Position numbers and translations under genes: made by a program. Of a stretch of 64,000 nt of DNA, positions 35,022 through 63,237 are shown piece after piece. How positions within the stretch are numbered: the stretch's first letter is position 1; each line of letters begins with the position of its first letter. Origin of the DNA: Bradyrhizobium sp. PSBB068 (GTDB lineage Bacteria > Pseudomonadota > Alphaproteobacteria > Rhizobiales > Xanthobacteraceae); the NCBI GenBank assembly GCA_016839165.1, contig CP069300.1:5084001-5148000 (forward strand), written 5' to 3'. The notes under the pieces are model-generated. The model had not been told where the DNA came from, did no database searches, and was given only the letters and a program-made list of their open reading frames with translations.

Positions 35022-36199
35022 TAGGGGAATCGCATATGGCGATGGAGGGGTGTTGCCAAGCGGTTGGAACTGGATTCTTTGGGTGTCTCTCGCTTCCCGA
35101 GGGAGACCAGAATGCGCCAACTCAAGCGCCTGCTTCGACCACTCAAGGACCCCCGCGCCAGCAACGTGCGGCACGATCTGGTGGAGATCATCGTCATCGC
35201 CTTGGCGGCGACACTGGCCGGCGCCAAGACCTGCACCGAGTTCGAGTTCTTCGGCAAAGGCCGAGAGGAGCTGTTGCAGCGGTTCCTGGAGCTCAGATCC
35301 GGCATCCCCAGCCACGATACGTTCAGCAACGTCTTCCGTGCTCTGGACCCGAAGGGGTTGGAAGCGATTTTGCGCAAGCTCAGCAAGGGCTTCGGCATCA
35401 AGGGCGTGGTCAGCATCGACGGCAAGGCGTTGCGCGGCGCCTTCATGCGTGGGCGGCAATCCACACCGCTGCATATGGTCAATGTCTGGGCGGCAGGCAC
35501 ACGCATGGCGCTGGCTCAAAGGAAGGCCCCCAATCGCAACGAGGTTGCCGGCGTTCTCGAAGTCCTCGCCTCGCTCGATCTGGACGGCGCTCTTGTCACT
35601 GCCGACGCCTTGCATTGCCGGCCCGATGTCGCGCAAGCCATCCGCGACCGGAAGGGCCACTACGTTCTGGCCATCAAGAGCAATCGCGGCCGGCTCTTCA
35701 AGGCCGCCAAGGCGTTGCTCGACACCGCCCGACGGCCTGCGCGAGCAAGCCAGCGAAGAACCGCCGCCCACGATCGCATCGAGCGCCGGCAAGCCATCAT
35801 CGTGCCGGCACCGCAATTGGCGAAGCAACATGGCTTCCCCGCTATCGTCGCGGTCGGCCGCATCGACAGCTGGCGCGCAACTGCCGGCAAGCCTGCCAAG
35901 CGGACGGCCCGATACTTTCTGGCTTCGCGGCGGCTGCCAGCCAAGAAGCTGCTCGACGTCGTCCGCGCCCACTGGAGCATCGAGAACAACCTGCACTGGG
36001 TTCTCGACGTTCTGTTCGACGAGGACGCTTGCCGCAGCCGCAAGGACCACGCCCCGGAGAACCTTGCCGTCATCCGCAAGCTCGCCATCAACGCCCTGCA
36101 AGCCACGCCAGGTCCAGCGCGAACCAGCCACAAAATGCTCCAGGCAAGATGGAGCAACGACTTCCTTCTCACCGTCCTGGCCCATATGCGATAGCCCTA
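35022..36199 (+). mobile_element. ISAs1-family insertion sequence, copy 1 (1178 bp)
   Basis: The element has 18-base terminal inverted repeats, TAGGGGAATCGCATATGG at the left and TAGGGCTATCGCATATGG (reverse complement) at the right, 16 of 18 identical. A 10-base direct repeat CCTTGCGGGG flanks it at 35012-35021 and 36200-36209. One transposase gene fills it, and its stop codon lies within the right inverted repeat. Copy 2 at 39006-40183 has the same length and appears identical. It is inserted in the left arm of a MITE-like repeat. Confidence 0.93.
35112..36194 (+). CDS. ISAs1-family transposase, copy 1
   Basis: A 360-residue DDE transposase of the ISAs1 (H-repeat-associated) family. Motifs include PLKDPRASNVRHDL near the start, VSIDGKALRG with the first catalytic Asp, TADALHC with the second, the HYVLAIKSNR strand, and HWSIENNLHWVLDV with the catalytic Glu. 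ATG 35112 is chosen since GAGGGAG stands eight bases upstream and conservation starts there; ATG 35064 gives 376 residues. The frame is intact, so the element is probably active. Confidence 0.92.
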   Translation: MRQLKRLLRPLKDPRASNVRHDLVEIIVIALAATLAGAKTCTEFEFFGKGREELLQRFLELRSGIPSHDTFSNVFRALDPKGLEAILRKLSKGFGIKGVVSIDGKALRGAFMRGRQSTPLHMVNVWAAGTRMALAQRKAPNRNEVAGVLEVLASLDLDGALVTADALHCRPDVAQAIRDRKGHYVLAIKSNRGRLFKAAKALLDTARRPARASQRRTAAHDRIERRQAIIVPAPQLAKQHGFPAIVAVGRIDSWRATAGKPAKRTARYFLASRRLPAKKLLDVVRAHWSIENNLHWVLDVLFDEDACRSRKDHAPENLAVIRKLAINALQATPGPARTSHKMLQARWSNDFLLTVLAHMR

Positions 36200-36607: not shown

Positions 36608-38815
36608 ATGCCCGCGACGAACGTGGCCGAAGGGCCCAATCAGCGACAAGCCGGCTTCAATCTCTTCCTCGTCGGCTTCCTGATCCTGTTCCTCGAGCTG
36701 GCCTGCATCCGCTGGTTCTCGGCCAAGGTCGTCTTCCTGCAATTCTTCACCAATATCGTGCTGCTGGCGGCCTTCCTTGGCATGTCCTGCGGCTGCCTTG
36801 CCGCGCGGCGGACCACCAACTGGCTTGCGCTGTTTCCGGGGCTCGCGCTCGTGACCTTCGCCGCCGTGGCCACGATCATGGTGCTGTATTTCCAGTGGGG
36901 CGAGTTCGCAGTCGACGTCGGCCATCAGGCCTCGCCGCAGGAGGTGTTCTTCGGCACCGAATATCGCAACCCGGATCTCGCCAAATTCGTGGTGCCGATC
37001 GAGGCGATCGCCGGGCTGTTCTTCGTGCTGATCGCGCTGATGTTCGTCGGCCTCGGCCAGACGCTCGGCCGCGCCTTCGATGCCTACCCGAACCGCGTCG
37101 CCGGCTATTCGCTCAATATCGGCGGCAGCCTGGCGGGCATCGTGGGGTTCTCGCTGCTGTCGTTCGCACAGGCGCCGCCGGTGGTCTGGTTCGGCATCAG
37201 CTGCGCCGGCATCGCCTATCTGCTCTATCAGGACAAGGCGCTGTCGCTGCTGCGCCTCGTGACGATCATCTTCGTGGTCGGATTTACCGGATTCTACACC
37301 GATCGTTCCGGCAACCATGACATCCGCTGGTCGCCTTACTACGCCGTCGACCTCAACAAGAAGAGCGGCGAAATCACCGTCAACAGCATCGGCCATCAGG
37401 AAATGATGCCGTTCAGCGAACGCGGCTCGTCCTATTCGCTGATCCATTTGCTGCAGCAGCACAGCGGCGGCGCGCCGTTCAAGGACGTCATGATCATCGG
37501 CGCCGGCTCCGGCAACGACCTGGCGCACGCCTTGCGCTTCGGCGTGGAGCGCGTCGATGCGGTCGAGATCGATCCCGCGATCCAGGACATCGGCATCCAC
37601 AACCATCCCGACAAGCCCTATCAGGACCCGCGGGTGGTGCCGCATCTCGACGACGGCCGGCATTTCCTGCGCACCACCGAACGCAAATACGATCTCGTGG
37701 TGTATGCGCTGGTCGACTCGCTGATCCTGCACAGCGGTTATGCCAACATCCGTCTCGAAAGCTACCTGTTCACCGAACAGGCGTTCCAGGACGTCCGCCG
37801 TGTGCTGAAGCAGGACGGCATCTTCGTGATGTACAACTACTACCGCCAGGGCTGGATCGTGCAGCGCGTCGCCGAGATGGCCAAGCAGGTGTTCGGCTGC
37901 GATCCGCTGGTGCTGCCGCTGCCCTACAAGGAAACCCTGACGTCATCGGAAGCGGTCGGCTTCACCACCATCATCGCGGGCTGCAATCCCCGCATCTCCA
38001 CCGCGTTCCGCGACCGCGGCAAGTTCTGGCTGAACAGCATTCCGCCGGAGAACCTCGCGGTCGACGGTTTCGACAAGCCGCAGGAGAAAGCCAAAGACAA
38101 GGCAACCACGCAGCGCGGCGACTGGGTGCCGCTGGCGCCGGCGAAATTGGTGGTCGACAATGAAGGCGCCAGGCAATCGACCAGCGACGACTGGCCGTTC
38201 CTCTATGTCAGCGGGCGGCTGATCCCCGACCTCACCGTTCGCTCGATGATCCTGCTCGGCGTGCTCGGGCTCGGCCTCGTCTATCTGTTCAAGCCGAAGG
38301 GCGCCTGGCGGCCGAACAACCGGATGTTCTTCCTCGGCGCGGCCTTCATGCTGCTCGAGACCAAGGCGGTGGTGCAGATGGCACTGCTGTTCGGCAGCAC
38401 CTGGCTGGTCAACTCGGCGGTGTTCTTCACCGCGCTGCTGCTGATCCTCGCCGCCAATCTGTATGTGATCAAGGTGCCGTCCACCCGGCTGGTGCGGCAC
38501 TATGCCGGGCTGCTGCTGCTGCTCGCGGTCTCGGTGCTGGTGCCGCTCGACACCTTCCTGAGCGGCGGCATTGTCTGGCGCTACGTGATCCCGTGCGCGC
38601 TGGCGCTCGGCCCGATGTTCTTCGCCGGCGTGATCTTCGCCCGCACCTTCCGCGACGAGGCCAATCCCGACCAGGCGTTCGGATCCAACATCGCGGGCTC
38701 CGTGATCGGCGGCCTCGCCGAGTCGTGCTCGACCCTGCTCGGCTTCCGCTATCTCCTGATCGTGGCGATCGGCTTTTACCTCTTGTCCGCCTGGATGCCC
38801 TCGCGCAAGGGCTAG
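36608..38815 (+). CDS. Polytopic membrane protein with spermidine-synthase-like domain
   Basis: A 735-residue protein with three parts. Residues 1-235 hold about six membrane helices (FLILFLELACIRWF opens the first). Residues about 250-520 form a soluble Rossmann methyltransferase/spermidine-synthase-like domain with the nucleotide motif VMIIGAGSGNDLAHAL, VDAVEIDPAIQDIG and DDGRHFLRTTERKYD. Residues about 545-735 hold six or seven more helices. Such MFS-like/SpeE proteins are widespread but uncharacterised. It is alone between two IS-bearing repeats. AAGGAG lies eleven bases before the ATG. Whether it makes polyamines is unknown. Confidence 0.85.
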   Translation: MPATNVAEGPNQRQAGFNLFLVGFLILFLELACIRWFSAKVVFLQFFTNIVLLAAFLGMSCGCLAARRTTNWLALFPGLALVTFAAVATIMVLYFQWGEFAVDVGHQASPQEVFFGTEYRNPDLAKFVVPIEAIAGLFFVLIALMFVGLGQTLGRAFDAYPNRVAGYSLNIGGSLAGIVGFSLLSFAQAPPVVWFGISCAGIAYLLYQDKALSLLRLVTIIFVVGFTGFYTDRSGNHDIRWSPYYAVDLNKKSGEITVNSIGHQEMMPFSERGSSYSLIHLLQQHSGGAPFKDVMIIGAGSGNDLAHALRFGVERVDAVEIDPAIQDIGIHNHPDKPYQDPRVVPHLDDGRHFLRTTERKYDLVVYALVDSLILHSGYANIRLESYLFTEQAFQDVRRVLKQDGIFVMYNYYRQGWIVQRVAEMAKQVFGCDPLVLPLPYKETLTSSEAVGFTTIIAGCNPRISTAFRDRGKFWLNSIPPENLAVDGFDKPQEKAKDKATTQRGDWVPLAPAKLVVDNEGARQSTSDDWPFLYVSGRLIPDLTVRSMILLGVLGLGLVYLFKPKGAWRPNNRMFFLGAAFMLLETKAVVQMALLFGSTWLVNSAVFFTALLLILAANLYVIKVPSTRLVRHYAGLLLLLAVSVLVPLDTFLSGGIVWRYVIPCALALGPMFFAGVIFARTFRDEANPDQAFGSNIAGSVIGGLAESCSTLLGFRYLLIVAIGFYLLSAWMPSRKG

Positions 38816-39005: not shown

Positions 39006-40183
39006 TAGGGCTATCGCATATGGGCCAGGACGGTGAGAAGGAAGTCGTTGCTCCATCTTGCCTGGAGCATTTTGTGGCTGGTTCGCGCTGGACCTGGCGT
39101 GGCTTGCAGGGCGTTGATGGCGAGCTTGCGGATGACGGCAAGGTTCTCCGGGGCGTGGTCCTTGCGGCTGCGGCAAGCGTCCTCGTCGAACAGAACGTCG
39201 AGAACCCAGTGCAGGTTGTTCTCGATGCTCCAGTGGGCGCGGACGACGTCGAGCAGCTTCTTGGCTGGCAGCCGCCGCGAAGCCAGAAAGTATCGGGCCG
39301 TCCGCTTGGCAGGCTTGCCGGCAGTTGCGCGCCAGCTGTCGATGCGGCCGACCGCGACGATAGCGGGGAAGCCATGTTGCTTCGCCAATTGCGGTGCCGG
39401 CACGATGATGGCTTGCCGGCGCTCGATGCGATCGTGGGCGGCGGTTCTTCGCTGGCTTGCTCGCGCAGGCCGTCGGGCGGTGTCGAGCAACGCCTTGGCG
39501 GCCTTGAAGAGCCGGCCGCGATTGCTCTTGATGGCCAGAACGTAGTGGCCCTTCCGGTCGCGGATGGCTTGCGCGACATCGGGCCGGCAATGCAAGGCGT
39601 CGGCAGTGACAAGAGCGCCGTCCAGATCGAGCGAGGCGAGGACTTCGAGAACGCCGGCAACCTCGTTGCGATTGGGGGCCTTCCTTTGAGCCAGCGCCAT
39701 GCGTGTGCCTGCCGCCCAGACATTGACCATATGCAGCGGTGTGGATTGCCGCCCACGCATGAAGGCGCCGCGCAACGCCTTGCCGTCGATGCTGACCACG
39801 CCCTTGATGCCGAAGCCCTTGCTGAGCTTGCGCAAAATCGCTTCCAACCCCTTCGGGTCCAGAGCACGGAAGACGTTGCTGAACGTATCGTGGCTGGGGA
39901 TGCCGGATCTGAGCTCCAGGAACCGCTGCAACAGCTCCTCTCGGCCTTTGCCGAAGAACTCGAACTCGGTGCAGGTCTTGGCGCCGGCCAGTGTCGCCGC
40001 CAAGGCGATGACGATGATCTCCACCAGATCGTGCCGCACGTTGCTGGCGCGGGGGTCCTTGAGTGGTCGAAGCAGGCGCTTGAGTTGGCGCATTCTGGTC
40101 TCCCTCGGGAAGCGAGAGACACCCAAAGAATCCAGTTCCAACCGCTTGGCAACACCCCTCCATCGCCATATGCGATTCCCCTA
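39006..40183 (-). mobile_element. ISAs1-family insertion sequence, copy 2 (1178 bp, inverted)
   Basis: Same length and terminal repeats as copy 1, opposite orientation. The flanking 10-base direct repeat is CCCCGCAAGG at 38996-39005 and 40184-40193, which is the reverse complement of the duplication around copy 1. It therefore entered the equivalent sequence of the other arm of a second MITE-like repeat. The two copies can recombine and invert the 2.8-kb segment between them. Confidence 0.93.
39011..40093 (-). CDS. ISAs1-family transposase, copy 2
   Basis: The 360-residue product is identical to that of copy 1 in every residue I compared, and the same shadow frames are open in both copies, so the DNA is also essentially identical. 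This points to recent transposition or gene conversion. Start and motifs are as in copy 1; the stop lies within the terminal inverted repeat. Confidence 0.92.
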   Translation of the reverse strand: MRQLKRLLRPLKDPRASNVRHDLVEIIVIALAATLAGAKTCTEFEFFGKGREELLQRFLELRSGIPSHDTFSNVFRALDPKGLEAILRKLSKGFGIKGVVSIDGKALRGAFMRGRQSTPLHMVNVWAAGTRMALAQRKAPNRNEVAGVLEVLASLDLDGALVTADALHCRPDVAQAIRDRKGHYVLAIKSNRGRLFKAAKALLDTARRPARASQRRTAAHDRIERRQAIIVPAPQLAKQHGFPAIVAVGRIDSWRATAGKPAKRTARYFLASRRLPAKKLLDVVRAHWSIENNLHWVLDVLFDEDACRSRKDHAPENLAVIRKLAINALQATPGPARTSHKMLQARWSNDFLLTVLAHMR

Positions 40184-56179: not shown

Positions 56180-59100
56180 TCACGCATGCTGGGGCGGGGC
56201 AAGCGTGGCGACCTGGTCGGAATGCACCGTGATTGCCGTGCCGCCATGTCCATCGCTCGCGGCGACGAAGGTGGATGCCATGTAGTTTCCGAGCAGGGCG
56301 ATGCTGGCGGTGTGGATGCCGTCCGAGACCGTGACCGATCCGCCGGCGCTGTTGCCGGCAAAGCCCACGGTTTGCCCGGCCGCAAAATTGATGTTGGCGA
56401 GATCGATCGCGTCGGCGCCCGACATGCCGGCGACGGTGCCGGAGAAGCCGGCGGGGTCGTCGAGCCTCAGCGTCCCGGTGTCCGATGCAAAGGAGATCTG
56501 AGCCGCGCTCGCGGACGCAAGCTCGAGGGTCTGTCCGGCCGGAATGATCGAGGGATCGCTGATCGTGAAGGCGCTGGACCAGGCGCCCCAGACGGTCCCG
56601 TCATTGGCCTTGATCCACAGCGTGTCGGTGCCCGATCCGACGTGATACGCAAGTTGCGAGAGCTGCGAGGCCGAGACGATGTCGTCCTGATTTGCTCCGA
56701 GCGTGACACCGTTCAGCGTGAAGTAGCCGCTCCCGCCGCCGCTATTCCAGACATCATACGATGTCGCGGAACTGCCGAACGGATCCGAATAGCTGAACAG
56801 CGAGGACACAGCGAAGGTCTGGCCTTGAACGGACAGCGTGCTTGAATTGGTCGGGGTGACGACCGGACCGCTATCGACCGGCGCGGTCACGGTGAAGGCA
56901 CTCGACCATGCTCCCCAGACGGTGCCGTCATTCGCGCGGACCCACAGCGTGTCCGCTCCCGAACCGGATTGATAGCTCAGCGACGCCAACTGGGCAGCCG
57001 TGACGTAATTGTCCTGGTTGGTCGACAGCACCGCCCCGTTCAGAACGAAGTGCCCGCCTCCCGTACCCGTGTTCCAGACGTCATATTGGCTCGCAGCGCT
57101 GCTGAACGGATCGCTGTAGGTGAACAGCGACGAGGCCGCATAGCTCTGGCCGTGGGGCGCGATGATGTTCGACACCGCCTCGACGGGCCCGCTGTCGATC
57201 GGAGCATTGACGGTGAAGGCGCTCGACCACGCCCCCCACACCGTGCCGTCATTGGCGCGGATCCAGAGCGTGTCGACGCCGGAGCCGGATTGATAGCTGA
57301 GCGAGGCCAGCTGGGCGGCCGTGATGTAATTGTCCTGCGTGGCCGAAAGTGCCGCTCCGTTCAGAACGAAGTGCCCACCGACGGTGCCGGTATCCCAGAC
57401 ATCATATTCGACGGCCAGGCTGTTGAACGGATCGCTGTAAGTGAACAGCGACGAGGCCGCATAACTCTGACCGTGGGGCGCGGTAATGTTCGACACCGCC
57501 TCGACGGGTCCGCTATCGACCGGGGCTTGAACGGTGAAGGGGTTGGACCAGGCCCCCCAAACCGTGCCGTCATTGGCGCGGATCCAAAGTGTGTCGGTCC
57601 CCGAGCCGGACTGGTAGTTGAGCGAGGCCAGCTGGGCGGCAGTGATGTAATTGTCCTGGTTGGCCGGCAGCGCCACGCCGTTCAGGACGAAGTGCCCACC
57701 GACGGTGCCGGTATCCCAGACATCGTACTCGACGGCGGGGCTGCTGAACGGATCACTGTAGGTAAACAGCGACGAGGCCGCATAGCTCTGGCCGTGGGGC
57801 GCGACGATGTTCGACACCGTCTCGACGGGCCCGTTGTCGACCGGAGCTGCGACGGTGAAGGCGCTCGACCACGCTCCCCACACGGTGCCGTCATTGGCGC
57901 GGATCCAGAGCGTGTCGATCCCGGAGCCGGATTGGTAGCTGAGCGAGGCGAGCTGGGCGGCCGTGATGTAATTGTCCTGTTTGGCCGACAGCGCCACGCC
58001 GTTCAGGACGAAGTGCCCGCCTCCTGTACCCGTGTTCCAGACGTCGTATTGTGTTGCAGGACTGCTGAACGGATCGCTGTAGGTGAACAGCGACGAGGCT
58101 GCATAGCTCTGGCCATGGAACGCGGCGACGTCCGACACCGTCTCAACGGGGCCGTTGTCGACCGGAGCCGTGACTGTGAAAGCGTTCGACCACTGTCCCC
58201 ACACCGTCGAGTCGTTGGCCCGGATCCAGAGCGTGTCCGAGCCCGAGCCCGATTGATAGGTCAATGACGACAGCTGCGCGGCCGTGACGTAATTGTGCTG
58301 GTTGGCGGCAAGCGCCACTCCGTTCAAAACGAAGTGGCCGCCACCGGTGCCGGCGTCCCAGACGTCGTATTGGGCGGCCGCGAAGCCGAACGGGTCGTAA
58401 TAGGTGAACAGCGACGACACGGCAAAGCTCTGGCCGTGCCATGCCGTCACGTCTGCGACCGTCACCACGGGCCCTTCCGGGATTGCCGCAAATTGGGCCC
58501 ATGTGCTCCAGGACACGCCGTTGAACGCCCGCACCCACAGCTGGTCGCTCGCGGGACCGAACTGGTAGGCAATGTTGGACCATTGTGAAGCAGCGACGTC
58601 GACCTCAACCCCGTTCGCCTGCGCCACCCCGCCTACAGTGAAGTGGCCGTTACCGGTGGAGTCCCAAAGCGCATACTCGATCACCGGCAAAGTACCGCTC
58701 GTCACATAGAACATGGACGATGCCGGAAGCGAGGTTTGCACCCGGCCGGTTATGTTGGAGGCGACCACCGTTGGCGCGACGTCGACGGCGCCGGAATTAT
58801 CGATGACGAAGTCGCCGCCCTCACTGGCGATCTGGGTGAGCGATACTTCGAATTGCACATCCCAGTTTTGACCGGGATAGCTGTTTCCCCACGGATTGCG
58901 AACGATGAAATTGCCGGTCGCACTGTCATAGCCGACGACTCCGAAAGCGTGATCCGGGACCAGCTGGATATTTCCGGCGCTGTCATAGGTGTACGGCGAT
59001 GTCGAAGGAATCTCGAGGATGACGTCGTCGTAGCTGGCGAGCGCAGCGATATAGACGGACTTGTTGCTATACCAATTGGACGCGCTGCTCATGTAATAGC

Positions 59101-59947
59101 TGACGCTGGTTGCGTCAGTCAGATTCTCCAGGACATCGGTCGGAGGATCCGCAGAGATGTTGTTGTAGCTGTTGACCGCCGGGTGCCCGATCTGTCCCGT
59201 TGCGCTGAGTTGCGCATACGCCTTCTCCACCAGGGCAACCCACATCGCGGTGGGTTGCTCATTGTAGTTGTGACCGTAGTCGAGTTCGGTCCCATTGACC
59301 GTTGGAAACATGTCGTTGACGGTTTCCCACGTCTCCTGCCCCCCGACATAGAAGCGCACGCCATAGGTGCCGTTTCCATTGTCGACGAACATGGAACTCA
59401 GGACCTGCGGATGAAAGACGACGACGTCGATCAATCCTGACATCAGTTCGCAATCGCCGTCGGCTCCCTGACAGATGTCGTTGACGGTGGCTGCGCCCGC
59501 CGAGGAATACAACGGTCCGACAACCGCGCTGTAGCCCTGCAATGTCCAGCCGTTCGCATCCGGCGGCAAAGTCGGATCCGGGAGATCGGTTCCCAGGAAC
59601 CACTTCCCGAGCAGCTCGGACATCTGCGTCGACGTCGTGCCGACCTGCAGATTGCCGAGCGTGACATGGACCGTACTGCCCCCCGTCAAGGTGGCGTTCG
59701 CCGGATTACCGTCAACGAGCTGGCCGAAAAGATGGGAGACATAGTCCGATGTGGACAGCCCGCTGTTCAGATTGGCCGCAATCACCTGCAGCGAGTTCAG
59801 CTCATTCGCGGTCACGCTGCCGCGATTAGCGACGTTGGCCAGCAAGTCATAGGCTTCGGCGTAAGTGAAAACCCCGTCCGCAGCAAAGTTGAGCATGTCG
59901 GACTTGACGCCGCTGTCGACCAGGGAATTGATCCAGCTTGCAGTCAT
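56180..59947 (-). CDS. Large calpain-like (C2) cysteine protease with tandem 107-residue repeats, probably secreted
   Basis: A 1255-residue protein. Residues 1-125 are helical and polar. Residues about 130-390 resemble a calpain catalytic core: C166 in GADGDCELMSG, the helper motif MWVALVEKAYAQL (235-247), H333 in PDHAFGVVGYD and N351 in VRNPWGN, giving a Cys-His-Asn triad. Residue 391-492 is a diverged repeat; 493-1134 hold six 107-residue units. The last 120 residues (FSGTVAGMSGADAIDLANI, NYMASTFVAASDGHGGT) resemble C-termini of type I secreted proteins. No Sec signal. ATG 59947 follows AAGGA; frame to 60007 is not conserved. No secretion genes nearby. Confidence 0.82.
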   Translation of the reverse strand: MTASWINSLVDSGVKSDMLNFAADGVFTYAEAYDLLANVANRGSVTANELNSLQVIAANLNSGLSTSDYVSHLFGQLVDGNPANATLTGGSTVHVTLGNLQVGTTSTQMSELLGKWFLGTDLPDPTLPPDANGWTLQGYSAVVGPLYSSAGAATVNDICQGADGDCELMSGLIDVVVFHPQVLSSMFVDNGNGTYGVRFYVGGQETWETVNDMFPTVNGTELDYGHNYNEQPTAMWVALVEKAYAQLSATGQIGHPAVNSYNNISADPPTDVLENLTDATSVSYYMSSASNWYSNKSVYIAALASYDDVILEIPSTSPYTYDSAGNIQLVPDHAFGVVGYDSATGNFIVRNPWGNSYPGQNWDVQFEVSLTQIASEGGDFVIDNSGAVDVAPTVVASNITGRVQTSLPASSMFYVTSGTLPVIEYALWDSTGNGHFTVGGVAQANGVEVDVAASQWSNIAYQFGPASDQLWVRAFNGVSWSTWAQFAAIPEGPVVTVADVTAWHGQSFAVSSLFTYYDPFGFAAAQYDVWDAGTGGGHFVLNGVALAANQHNYVTAAQLSSLTYQSGSGSDTLWIRANDSTVWGQWSNAFTVTAPVDNGPVETVSDVAAFHGQSYAASSLFTYSDPFSSPATQYDVWNTGTGGGHFVLNGVALSAKQDNYITAAQLASLSYQSGSGIDTLWIRANDGTVWGAWSSAFTVAAPVDNGPVETVSNIVAPHGQSYAASSLFTYSDPFSSPAVEYDVWDTGTVGGHFVLNGVALPANQDNYITAAQLASLNYQSGSGTDTLWIRANDGTVWGAWSNPFTVQAPVDSGPVEAVSNITAPHGQSYAASSLFTYSDPFNSLAVEYDVWDTGTVGGHFVLNGAALSATQDNYITAAQLASLSYQSGSGVDTLWIRANDGTVWGAWSSAFTVNAPIDSGPVEAVSNIIAPHGQSYAASSLFTYSDPFSSAASQYDVWNTGTGGGHFVLNGAVLSTNQDNYVTAAQLASLSYQSGSGADTLWVRANDGTVWGAWSSAFTVTAPVDSGPVVTPTNSSTLSVQGQTFAVSSLFSYSDPFGSSATSYDVWNSGGGSGYFTLNGVTLGANQDDIVSASQLSQLAYHVGSGTDTLWIKANDGTVWGAWSSAFTISDPSIIPAGQTLELASASAAQISFASDTGTLRLDDPAGFSGTVAGMSGADAIDLANINFAAGQTVGFAGNSAGGSVTVSDGIHTASIALLGNYMASTFVAASDGHGGTAITVHSDQVATLAPPQHA
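56546..58471 (-). repeat. Six in-frame tandem 321-bp repeats in the calpain-like gene
   Basis: Each unit encodes 107 residues of the pattern PVETVSNI.APHGQSYA, SSLFTYSDPF, YDVW.TGT.GGHFVLNG, NYITAAQLASL.YQSGSG, DTLWIRANDGTVWGAWS and FTV.APVDSG. The six units start at 58471, 58150, 57829, 57508, 57187 and 56866. The middle ones are nearly identical, the first and last more diverged, as expected if repeats were gained by unequal exchange in the middle. The number is likely to vary between strains. Confidence 0.9.
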
Positions 59948-61332: not shown

Positions 61333-62004
61333 CTAGCGCTGTTCGCCGGCCGGCTTGCCGTCGTCCTCACCCAGACAGCGGATCATGAAAGCCGTTGTGT
61401 CCCGCGGCAGCACCTGTGCGGCGCGTGCCTTGAGACGGCATTCGAGCTGCGCGATCTGGCGCGCCCGCTGCCGTTCCGACGGCAATGCTGATTGCCGCAA
61501 CCGCCGCAAGGTCATCGGTGAGCCATCCGACTCGAAGCTCAGCTCGTATTTCTTGCCGTTCTGGTCGGTGGCAGCGCAGGCAACGGTCGACACCTGCCGC
61601 GTGATGAAGCTTCCGACCTGGCGGCAGGAGCCGGTCGACATCTCGACCAGCGGCACCGGCAGTCCATCGACACGCGGGCGGTCGCTCGACTTCAGCAACA
61701 TGCGATCGACCGCGAGCTCGAACAGATTGTCCTGGGTGCGCTCGGTGCTCTCGCCGGAGAACGAGACGATGTGGCTCTTGTCGGCGGGATCGTCGAGCAC
61801 CACGGTGAATTCGGAGCGGCCGCGCAGCGTGTGGAAATAGGCCACCGCCTTGCAGGTGTAGCTGCGGCCGGCAATGCTGACATTGCGGCAGGTGCCCGAC
61901 ATCAACGCATAAAGGTCGACGTCATAGACCGGGCCCGCGGCGACAGCGAGCGCCGGCCAGCAGACAATGGAAACCGCAATCAATTGAGCGAAACGGGAGA
62001 TCAT
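61333..62004 (-). CDS. Exported hypothetical protein
   Basis: A 223-residue protein with a signal peptide (MISRFAQLIAVSIVCWPALAVAAG, residues 1-23). The mature part shows TCRNVSIAGRSYTCKAVAYFHT, GRSEFTVVLDD, SFITRQVSTVACAAT and a last basic helical part (RQRARQIAQLECRLKARA) ending with DTTAFMIRCLGEDD. Several Cys pairs fit a periplasmic protein. I do not recognise the family. ATG 62004 is chosen for the signal peptide; ATG 62043 is possible. Confidence 0.68.
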   Translation of the reverse strand: MISRFAQLIAVSIVCWPALAVAAGPVYDVDLYALMSGTCRNVSIAGRSYTCKAVAYFHTLRGRSEFTVVLDDPADKSHIVSFSGESTERTQDNLFELAVDRMLLKSSDRPRVDGLPVPLVEMSTGSCRQVGSFITRQVSTVACAATDQNGKKYELSFESDGSPMTLRRLRQSALPSERQRARQIAQLECRLKARAAQVLPRDTTAFMIRCLGEDDGKPAGEQR

Positions 62005-62172
62005 GCTGAAACGGTCGAGAACGCGGTCGTTGGAGAGGCCCATGGCGCAGGGTCGCCGATTTCCACGGACTGTGCAACGAAGAAGCGGGCCCAAATGTGG
62101 AGGCCCCGCAAGCAATCGCCCGGGAAACGCAGGGCAAACCATGCGGAAAGGCCGCGGCGCTCGTGGCTTGCG

Positions 62173-63009
62173 TCAGATTTGCGGGCCGGACAGAGTGACC
62201 TCGCGCTCCGCGCGGAAGACGTTGCTGTAAAGATTCGCGATCCACTGACGACCGCTTGCCGTCATGTTCAGGCAATTGATGGCGCCCTGGATGTGCGGCG
62301 CAACCATATTCCAGTAGAATTGCGGATAGCGGTCGACGATGTCGGCCGGCGATTCATAGCCGAGCTGGCGGTTGATACCGACTTCCTCGAACTCGTGATA
62401 GAGCGCGTTGGCCTTCCTGATGTAGTTGGGATCGCCGAGTTGCCCGATGAAATCGGCTGCCCGGACGATCGCCGCCTCGTCGTCATAGTGCTGGCCTTCG
62501 GGCGATGGAAACCGTGTGCCCTCGATGTTGCGCGCGACGCGCTCGCGATCGAGCGGCAGCACGGCCTCGAGCCTGTCGAGCACATAGAGCTTCGAGCGGT
62601 CGACGTGATACGGCATCAGGCCGGCATCCGACGAGCCTCGCGGCAGCACGACCTTGTTGCCCGCGGCATCGATGACGTAGCCATCCGGTCCATCGCCCTT
62701 CAGCAGGCCGCGCACATAGCCGATGTCGTGCGTCAGGCAGGCGATGATCGTGTGGGTGTAATCCTCCGCGGTGACGTGGGTGTGCAGCGCGCGGCCGCGG
62801 ATGATGTCGTGCCCGGCCAGCGTGACCAGCATCGTGTGCTCGACATTGTGGTAGAGCGCATCGCTGTTGCCGATGCATTCCAGCGCGATGCGCGCGGCGG
62901 CCGGCAGGAGTTCGCCAAAGCGCGCCTGCGAGGCCCCGAAGGTGCGGCTGACATGGGTGGCGAGAAACTTCTCCAAAGCACCCGCTGCCAACTCAGGTAA
63001 CGTCATCAT
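62173..63009 (-). CDS. HD-domain metal-dependent phosphohydrolase-like protein
   Basis: A 278-residue protein with the HD signature: an early His in YHNVEHTMLVTLAGHDI and the HD doublet in CLTHDIGYVRGLL, and a later Asp in IVRAADFIGQLGDPNY. Such domains hydrolyse phosphate esters of nucleotides, including cyclic ones, with a bound metal; the substrate here is unknown. Two ATGs (63009, 63006) are possible starts. No operon partner is seen. Confidence 0.82.
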   Translation of the reverse strand: MMTLPELAAGALEKFLATHVSRTFGASQARFGELLPAAARIALECIGNSDALYHNVEHTMLVTLAGHDIIRGRALHTHVTAEDYTHTIIACLTHDIGYVRGLLKGDGPDGYVIDAAGNKVVLPRGSSDAGLMPYHVDRSKLYVLDRLEAVLPLDRERVARNIEGTRFPSPEGQHYDDEAAIVRAADFIGQLGDPNYIRKANALYHEFEEVGINRQLGYESPADIVDRYPQFYWNMVAPHIQGAINCLNMTASGRQWIANLYSNVFRAEREVTLSGPQI

Positions 63010-63237
63010 CGATGCAGCCCCCGACCGCGCAACGTTCCTCACTCGTCCCGATCTCACGTCGTAGTTGGGTGGCAACTATAGCGTATCTGCGGGCGTGCGG
63101 CTATGCGCTGGCGGGCGCGCGATTCATTCAGCCGTACTTTTCCGGTCTTGCCGGCTGCGGCACCAAAGTCGCTGATAATGGCATGAACCGTGCATGATTC
63201 GGTTCAGACCGGGTTAATCCTACGGATAAACACCATC

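Follow-up and report, generated by a model that had tools for sequence, protein, structure and literature searches.

A calpain head on a repeat arm in Bradyrhizobium, probably exported by a type I system

Calpains are usually regarded as intracellular enzymes. Where, then, might one act that sits at the head of a long, repeat-bearing bacterial protein, and how might it get there? The question is raised by a gene at 56180..59947 on the minus strand of a 64,000-nucleotide stretch of Bradyrhizobium sp. PSBB068, a bacterium of soil and plants (contig CP069300.1 of assembly GCA_016839165.1, positions 5,084,001 to 5,148,000; 'the window' in what follows). It starts with an ATG at 59947, behind a purine-rich, Shine-Dalgarno-like stretch, stops at 56180, and encodes 1255 amino acids (aa); all of its parts described below lie on the minus strand. 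With a probability of roughly 0.72, we take the protein to be a cysteine protease of calpain type that works outside the cell, sent there by a type I secretion system (T1SS) through a C-terminal address, with an arm that would project the head or hold it in the surface layer. The case for export begins at the very end of the protein: the final residues are like those of proteins whose genes adjoin one class of type I pump, and on that ground export is probable. If a calpain were shown to leave the cell by a named pump, the site at which bacterial calpains act could be put to the test.

Several signs mark the head as a calpain. It matches PF00648 in Pfam at 1.4e-16 (60.9 bits; cut-off 23.8) and calpain-8 among PDB sequences at 8.7e-9, and its AlphaFold model has the papain-like calpain core fold. 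An earlier note, made from the letters alone, had proposed this core and a structure prediction to check it; family match, triad, calpain-8 match and model all bear it out. The core spans residues 146–395 (58763..59512) and keeps the family order Cys-His-Asn, with GDC and NPW: Cys166 (59450..59452), His333 (58949..58951) and Asn351, in NPWG (58895..58897). These residues, and the segment MWVALVEKAYAQL, stand in the translation where the note had placed them; one core motif departs from the animal pattern, GDCW reading GDCE here. Among 45 aligned sequences C is found in 43, H in 44 and N in all, and the triad is intact in 43, the window protein among them. Residues 1–145 (59513..59947) form a helical stretch (AlphaFold helices 4–117) and the entry to the calpain PC1 region; in the structure model, VIA matches to calpain cores start mostly near residue 67, and relatives as distant as cyanobacteria align within this stretch, L088 from residue 7 and L090 from residue 9, for example. 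A Pfam search with E up to 1 returned PF00648 only, with neither a C2-like domain III nor a penta-EF hand, and NCBIfam gave no match over its cut-off. By computation the gene is under purifying selection. Against each of the six window-type relatives tested dN/dS is 0.07–0.15 for the head, and hence the observed gene is not there by chance; for the end domain, against the same six, it is 0.18–0.28.

Behind the core the earlier note had counted one diverged and six regular modules. The diverged one and five of 107 aa stand; the sixth is 104 aa long and more diverged. Module 0 (residues 389–491; 58475..58783) overlaps the core part by its first seven residues and is 32–37% to the other modules. 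Modules 1–5 (residues 492–1026; 56870..58474) are 71–87% to each other, and module 6 (residues 1027–1130; 56558..56869) is 59–63% to these. At the DNA level, TRF finds 4.9 copies of 321 bp in the arm region, and in a fold search the predicted modules match Ig/FN3-like folds. Proteins P0001–P0009 have lengths near 1150, 1257 and 1364 aa, steps of about one 107-residue module, and so module number probably varies among strains.

The arm leads into a C-terminal beta domain (residues 1131–1255; 56183..56557), at the very end of which lies the candidate type I address, TLAPPQHA (56183..56206). The 125-residue domain is modeled with confidence, and its last 10 residues have a mean pLDDT of 56; the fold search with the C-terminal model was filled by Ig/FN3 modules, and the domain's own fold was barely probed by it. 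No Pfam or NCBIfam model covers this end domain of about 123–125 aa in the window protein. It recurs behind heads of many kinds, in at least 72 proteins outside the calpain list, among the matches listed. By precomputed Pfam accessions, heads among P0121–P0192 include galactose oxidase-like, M10 with RTX, GDSL, sortilin-like and GH16.

Nothing at the other end of the protein suggests the Sec route. In the first 70 residues 19-residue hydropathy peaks at 0.68, which on hydropathy alone means no hydrophobic N-terminus, and a Sec signal is nowhere in evidence. This, together with an acidic make-up (103 D+E against 17 K+R), counts in favor of type I export; the protein has two cysteines. A cytoplasmic calpain-like protein, with an arm and tail that play no part in export, would equally lack a Sec signal, and PMC9380684, in a passage on cyanobacterial calpains, infers a cytosolic location from absent transmembrane helices. 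We think this improbable here: adhesin-like strand-loop-strand proteins have the same arm and beta domain, and T1SS genes lie near relatives of the calpain.

The adhesin-like proteins are encoded in the same genome. Two of them, of 1984 aa (C1:3517-3523 kb) and 2301 aa (C1:6169-6176 kb), have arm and end domain together, each behind a strand-loop-strand (AIDA-like) head and with no protease domain that we could find; they lean us towards the surface or matrix as the calpain's likely location. A 999-aa protein carries the arm alone with, by eye, a metalloprotease-like motif, HELMHGFG, and no Pfam peptidase match. The genes of the 2301-aa and 999-aa proteins flank an HlyB/HlyD pair (C1:6178-6182 kb) that fits the type I families well: 1030 bits against 725.55 for HlyB (TIGR01846), and 410 against 208.65 for HlyD (TIGR01843). 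Between the 2301-aa gene and hlyD lie genes for a TibC-like heptosyltransferase and an FkbM methyltransferase (L014:3782-6045), whose presence in the cluster suggests that the strand-loop-strand protein might be modified with sugar.

A second pair (C1:2534-2539 kb) follows a gene for a polysaccharide-lyase-like protein that ends LTKPHH. Compared with the HlyB of the BTAi1 calpain operon, the 2535-kb and 6179-kb copies stand at 63% and 62%, and the next HlyB of the genome at 37%. The 2535-kb HlyB (L119:10724-13474) is 916 aa long; its TIGR01846 match sets in at residue 217, and the stretch ahead of that also has a match in a related HlyB, to the C39-like part. All six HlyBs that were typed, five linked to calpains and this one, exceed the TIGR01846 cut-off.

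Pumps of the same kind lie beside calpains elsewhere. One genome per species was scanned for relatives, and the best 80 of the 295 found were kept, giving 79 loci. HlyB-like and HlyD-like genes are both present in 14 of the 58 loci with at least 5 kb of sequence downstream of the match. L074 makes a fifteenth, with HlyB and HlyD divergent and upstream (HlyB 844 bits against our own genome's HlyB). In nine of these 15 pump-bearing loci the HlyB scores 684–873 bits against the own-genome one: L074 and eight of the 14 (L046, L053, L054, L058, L062, L066, L080 and L092). Cyanobacterial L101 and L108 score 601–603 bits, their genes lying on other strands or upstream, and four Aquitalea loci (L075-L078) have a weaker-matching pair at 207–219 bits. 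At seven loci—three Bradyrhizobium, one Siculibacillus and three metagenome-assembled genomes (Rhizobiales, Xanthobacteraceae, Ancalomicrobiaceae)—the hlyB match, in the same orientation as the calpain gene, begins 126–430 bp past the calpain stop, and at L046 hlyB is 3.7 kb beyond; these gaps run to the start of the tblastn match and not to a checked start codon. As a yardstick, the six HlyDs above the family cut-off in our genome of 7.67 Mb would, by simple arithmetic, leave about 1.6% of positions with one no more than 10 kb away. The pump-linked loci are kin to one another, and their counts are not independent events.

The earlier note had proposed looking for the same C-terminus on other proteins, and it is indeed there: on arm proteins, and on RTX proteins, some of the latter beside HlyB. 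Seven of the nine calpains beside the HlyB class that resembles our own finish on L[AST]xP and one to three further residues, with tails such as TLAMPLAA, TLASPLG, TLSSPLH and LLATPMH, and with preceding parts that range from very little to long arms. (The L080 calpain, which ends TLAMPMAA, is counted among the tailed; the L042 calpain was read in a wrong frame or is a broken copy, the L182 stretch yields no open reading frame that passes the filter, and the L170 stretch contains masked bases.) The background rate of an L[AST]xP end is 19 in 790 predicted open reading frames of the scanned stretches, and 14 of those 19 are calpains, an arm protein, or a lyase-like protein beside HlyB, the other five being unrelated. 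In a search by homology to the head, which scored the 7995 candidates sharing most words, with the best 120 of 360 listed and some sequences incomplete, the looser tail L[AST]xP fits 27 of 118 listed calpain homologues; it fits 40 of 72 listed other proteins that have the end domain.

In our own genome, L[AT]xPxHA before TRR has three matches in the DNA—the calpain and the two proteins with both arm and tail—as against two in the backward control. The shorter L[AT]xPxH before TRR gives eight, and the backward control 28. The frames viewed for five of the eight comprise the lyase-like protein, a frame of more than 500 aa in which a membrane stretch is possible, another of 424 aa, perhaps a wrong frame, and two short ones; two of the remaining three end in TGG and one has an internal stop. 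Across the genus, the variant LA[PQH]PQHA, with Q before H, accounts for 31 of 59 stop-ended matches and for none of 25 TGG-ended ones. Fisher's test gives 7.5e-7, a figure that is only descriptive because the subset was noticed in the matches themselves and was not fixed beforehand; related genomes, too, are not independent. The eight LA[PQ]PQHA loci that were read encode six RTX proteins with 10–13 repeats in their last 508 residues, one calpain, and one protein with arm and end domain.

A search across the order, with E up to 1e-220, picked up an HlyB at 19 loci, which belong to 17 of the 249 genomes. At G162 a 956-aa RTX protein with 20 GGxGx[DN] repeats ends LAMPQHA 38 bp before the hlyB frame, and at G087 a 949-aa RTX protein with 23 such repeats ends LAPPQHA 27 bp before it. 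A 2614-aa Ig-repeat protein ending LTRPQC adjoins hlyB at a second G162 locus.

Is the tail itself the signal? The protein might be exported by the type I route on the strength of the folded 125-aa beta domain, or of the arm, with the tail no more than a by-product of domain ancestry. The very different heads that share the beta domain fit this, as does the arm-bearing metalloprotease-like protein, which adjoins HlyB and is tailless. The tail occurs, however, on proteins that have no beta domain: on RTX proteins, on BTAi1-type calpains, which carry it with little sequence after the core, and on 13 of the 102 listed calpain homologues without the end domain. We therefore regard a domain- or arm-borne signal as unlikely, though less so than a cytoplasmic protein.

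The reading that we prefer, export by way of the tail, would run as follows. The protein would be translated without a Sec signal. Its tail, [S/T]xLAxPxH(A), set at the extreme C-terminus on a folded beta domain, would be recognized by HlyB of one clade, and an HlyB/HlyD-class system would export it in one step. The genes of that system would lie at a distance in the chromosome, the likeliest candidates being the pairs at C1:6178-6182 kb and C1:2534-2539 kb, singly or together. The protein would fold after export; its Ig/FN3-like arm would project the head, or anchor it in the cell surface or the exopolysaccharide layer; and the head would cleave proteins outside, probably without need of the classical calpain calcium sites. 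Of all this, computation supports the head with its fold and triad, the arm, the sharing of end domain and tail, the class of pump linked to relatives and the purifying selection, whereas export, the choice of pump, retention by the arm, activity and independence of calcium are inferred.

Several observations weigh against this reading. The earlier note's idea of type I secretion gains indirectly from the T1SS genes near relatives, the shared tail and the lack of a hydrophobic N-terminus, and it loses on two counts: the protein has no RTX nonapeptides (GGxGxD; no PF00353 match), and its locus has no T1SS gene. The window holds no full HlyB and no HlyD above cut-off, and no HlyB/HlyD pair was found in 13 window-type Bradyrhizobium loci, 10 of them with at least 5 kb downstream. 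In a tree of calpains (78 rows), the starred group of the window type holds only L046 of the nine HlyB-linked calpains, and the other eight fall in another; the linkage is therefore one of family and not of orthology. Two of the nine linked calpains, L046 and L058, lack the tail, and so does our own 999-aa arm protein beside HlyB, which ends FHFIV. In our genome no RTX protein ends L[AT]xPxHA, by a pattern that sees CTN leucines only. Across 98 genomes of the genus the tail pattern is not enriched, with 84 matches against 136 in the backward control. Tailed neighbors are missing from most of the remaining HlyB loci read, and at L185 an HlyB of 53% identity lies beside a protein ending LTAPTV, which fits the loose expression.

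That the window gene lost an operon it once had was considered and is unsupported, because eight of the nine linked calpains do not group with the window type. The missing pump genes need not disqualify the calpain, because the substrates of PrsDE in Rhizobium leguminosarum are dispersed: there, by the account in parts of PMC9298526, one T1SS serves many scattered genes, Rap/Ply among them. PrsDE is the closest analogy for our working model. As that source outlines them, its proteins join hydrolases to cadherin-like domains of ~110 residues and act at the surface and on exopolysaccharide; the likeness proposed for the calpain is drawn from descriptions and not from sequences. The candidate pumps here differ in being of an HlyB class with a C39-like domain, and the head differs in being a calpain. 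The Rap/CHDL family calls for at least one cadherin-like domain of 100–120 aa. No Pfam cadherin matched in the calpain-head protein, whereas its arm-sharing paralogues do have cadherin-type Pfam matches; and where modules of the three own-genome arm proteins commonly have a DxDGD-like motif, the calpain's arm lacks it and reads SDPFxS-like, instead.

Two other known systems come close. RTX proteins with HlyB/HlyD, as treated in portions of PMC3034196, use the same exporter class, and the tail also ends RTX proteins elsewhere in the genus; RTX repeats are absent from the calpain-head protein. The LAxPxHA tail is unlike the [FLI][VAI] end that T1SEstacker, in the sections of PMC8861453 at hand, reports for RTX proteins, whose C-termini are depleted in P. 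Strand-loop-strand (AIDA-like) proteins with a TibC-like heptosyltransferase are the other: the two in our genome share arm, beta domain and tail with the calpain, one of them near the TibC-like gene, and they differ from it in having no protease domain that was found.

Might the pattern be general? Type I-exported calpains could form a general class of extracellular bacterial proteases, and one HlyB clade, of Rhizobiales and their kin, could read a short, portable [S/T]xLAxPxH(A) that calpains, RTX proteins, strand-loop-strand adhesins and a polysaccharide-lyase-like enzyme have each acquired, whatever domains precede it. We offer this tentatively, at somewhat less than even odds. If the tail does predict the cargo of one HlyB clade, the extracellular proteins of many Bradyrhizobium strains could be listed from sequence.

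Bacterial calpains as such are already described, as family C2 (Rawlings 2015, PMC4631099), and the passages concerned portray them much as we find this one: a PF00648 core, a C-H-N triad, calcium sites mostly missing, and an occurrence that is rare and patchy within a genus. In Bradyrhizobium, the core exceeds its cut-off in 20 of 195 genomes, the window's included. The same passages place the peptidase C-terminally in most bacterial members, whereas the window protein has it N-terminally, with the arm behind. They give RTX domains for Gloeobacter only, and suggest secretion for a few bacterial calpains on other grounds. Neither 'Bradyrhizobium' nor 'type I secretion' occurs in the main text of PMC4631099 or PMC9380684, and 'calpain', in the relevant portion of the RTX review PMC3034196, is the host enzyme. 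Among the literature matches listed there is no type I-exported calpain; most subscription papers lay outside that search, and the tail motif was sought only narrowly.

The earlier note had also raised calcium dependence, and the conservation of ligands does not support it. PMC4631099, where it discusses calpain-2, lists as core ligands Ile89, Gly91, Asp96 and Glu175, together with Glu292, Asp299, Gln319 and Glu323. The equivalent of Asp96, D157, is invariant in all 45 aligned sequences and is the only acidic ligand clearly kept; that of Glu175 is A234 (A in 16 of the 45, D in 10), and the second-site stretch, after NPWG, falls outside the alignment. Dependence on calcium through the classical calpain sites thus appears unlikely, though calcium might still act through other sites.

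Type III effectors are part of the Bradyrhizobium repertoire, and effectors are often proteases, which lends some color to another idea, that the protein is injected, by type III or otherwise, and acts inside the plant cell. We consider this very improbable, the least likely of the alternatives. Sites resembling the tts-box consensus number two in the 64 kb, each with 3 mismatches and each more than 30 kb from the gene, where 1.24 are expected by chance; and the long arm, the C-terminal tail, and relatives in non-symbionts, cyanobacteria included, all fit poorly with injection.

As to the neighborhood, 11 of the 13 window-type loci have all four of panE, the protein at 61333-62142, a DUF3551 protein and the protein at 62173-63075, though the distances vary, and a DUF1330 neighbor is found in one; two of the 13, L035 and L041, are short contigs. 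Farther off in the window, two 376-aa open reading frames with the same printed start and end lie in opposite orientation, at 35064-36194 (+) and 39011-40141 (−), on either side of a 735-aa membrane-like protein (36608-38815). By eye they look like transposase genes, and so the two are perhaps a mobile-element pair.

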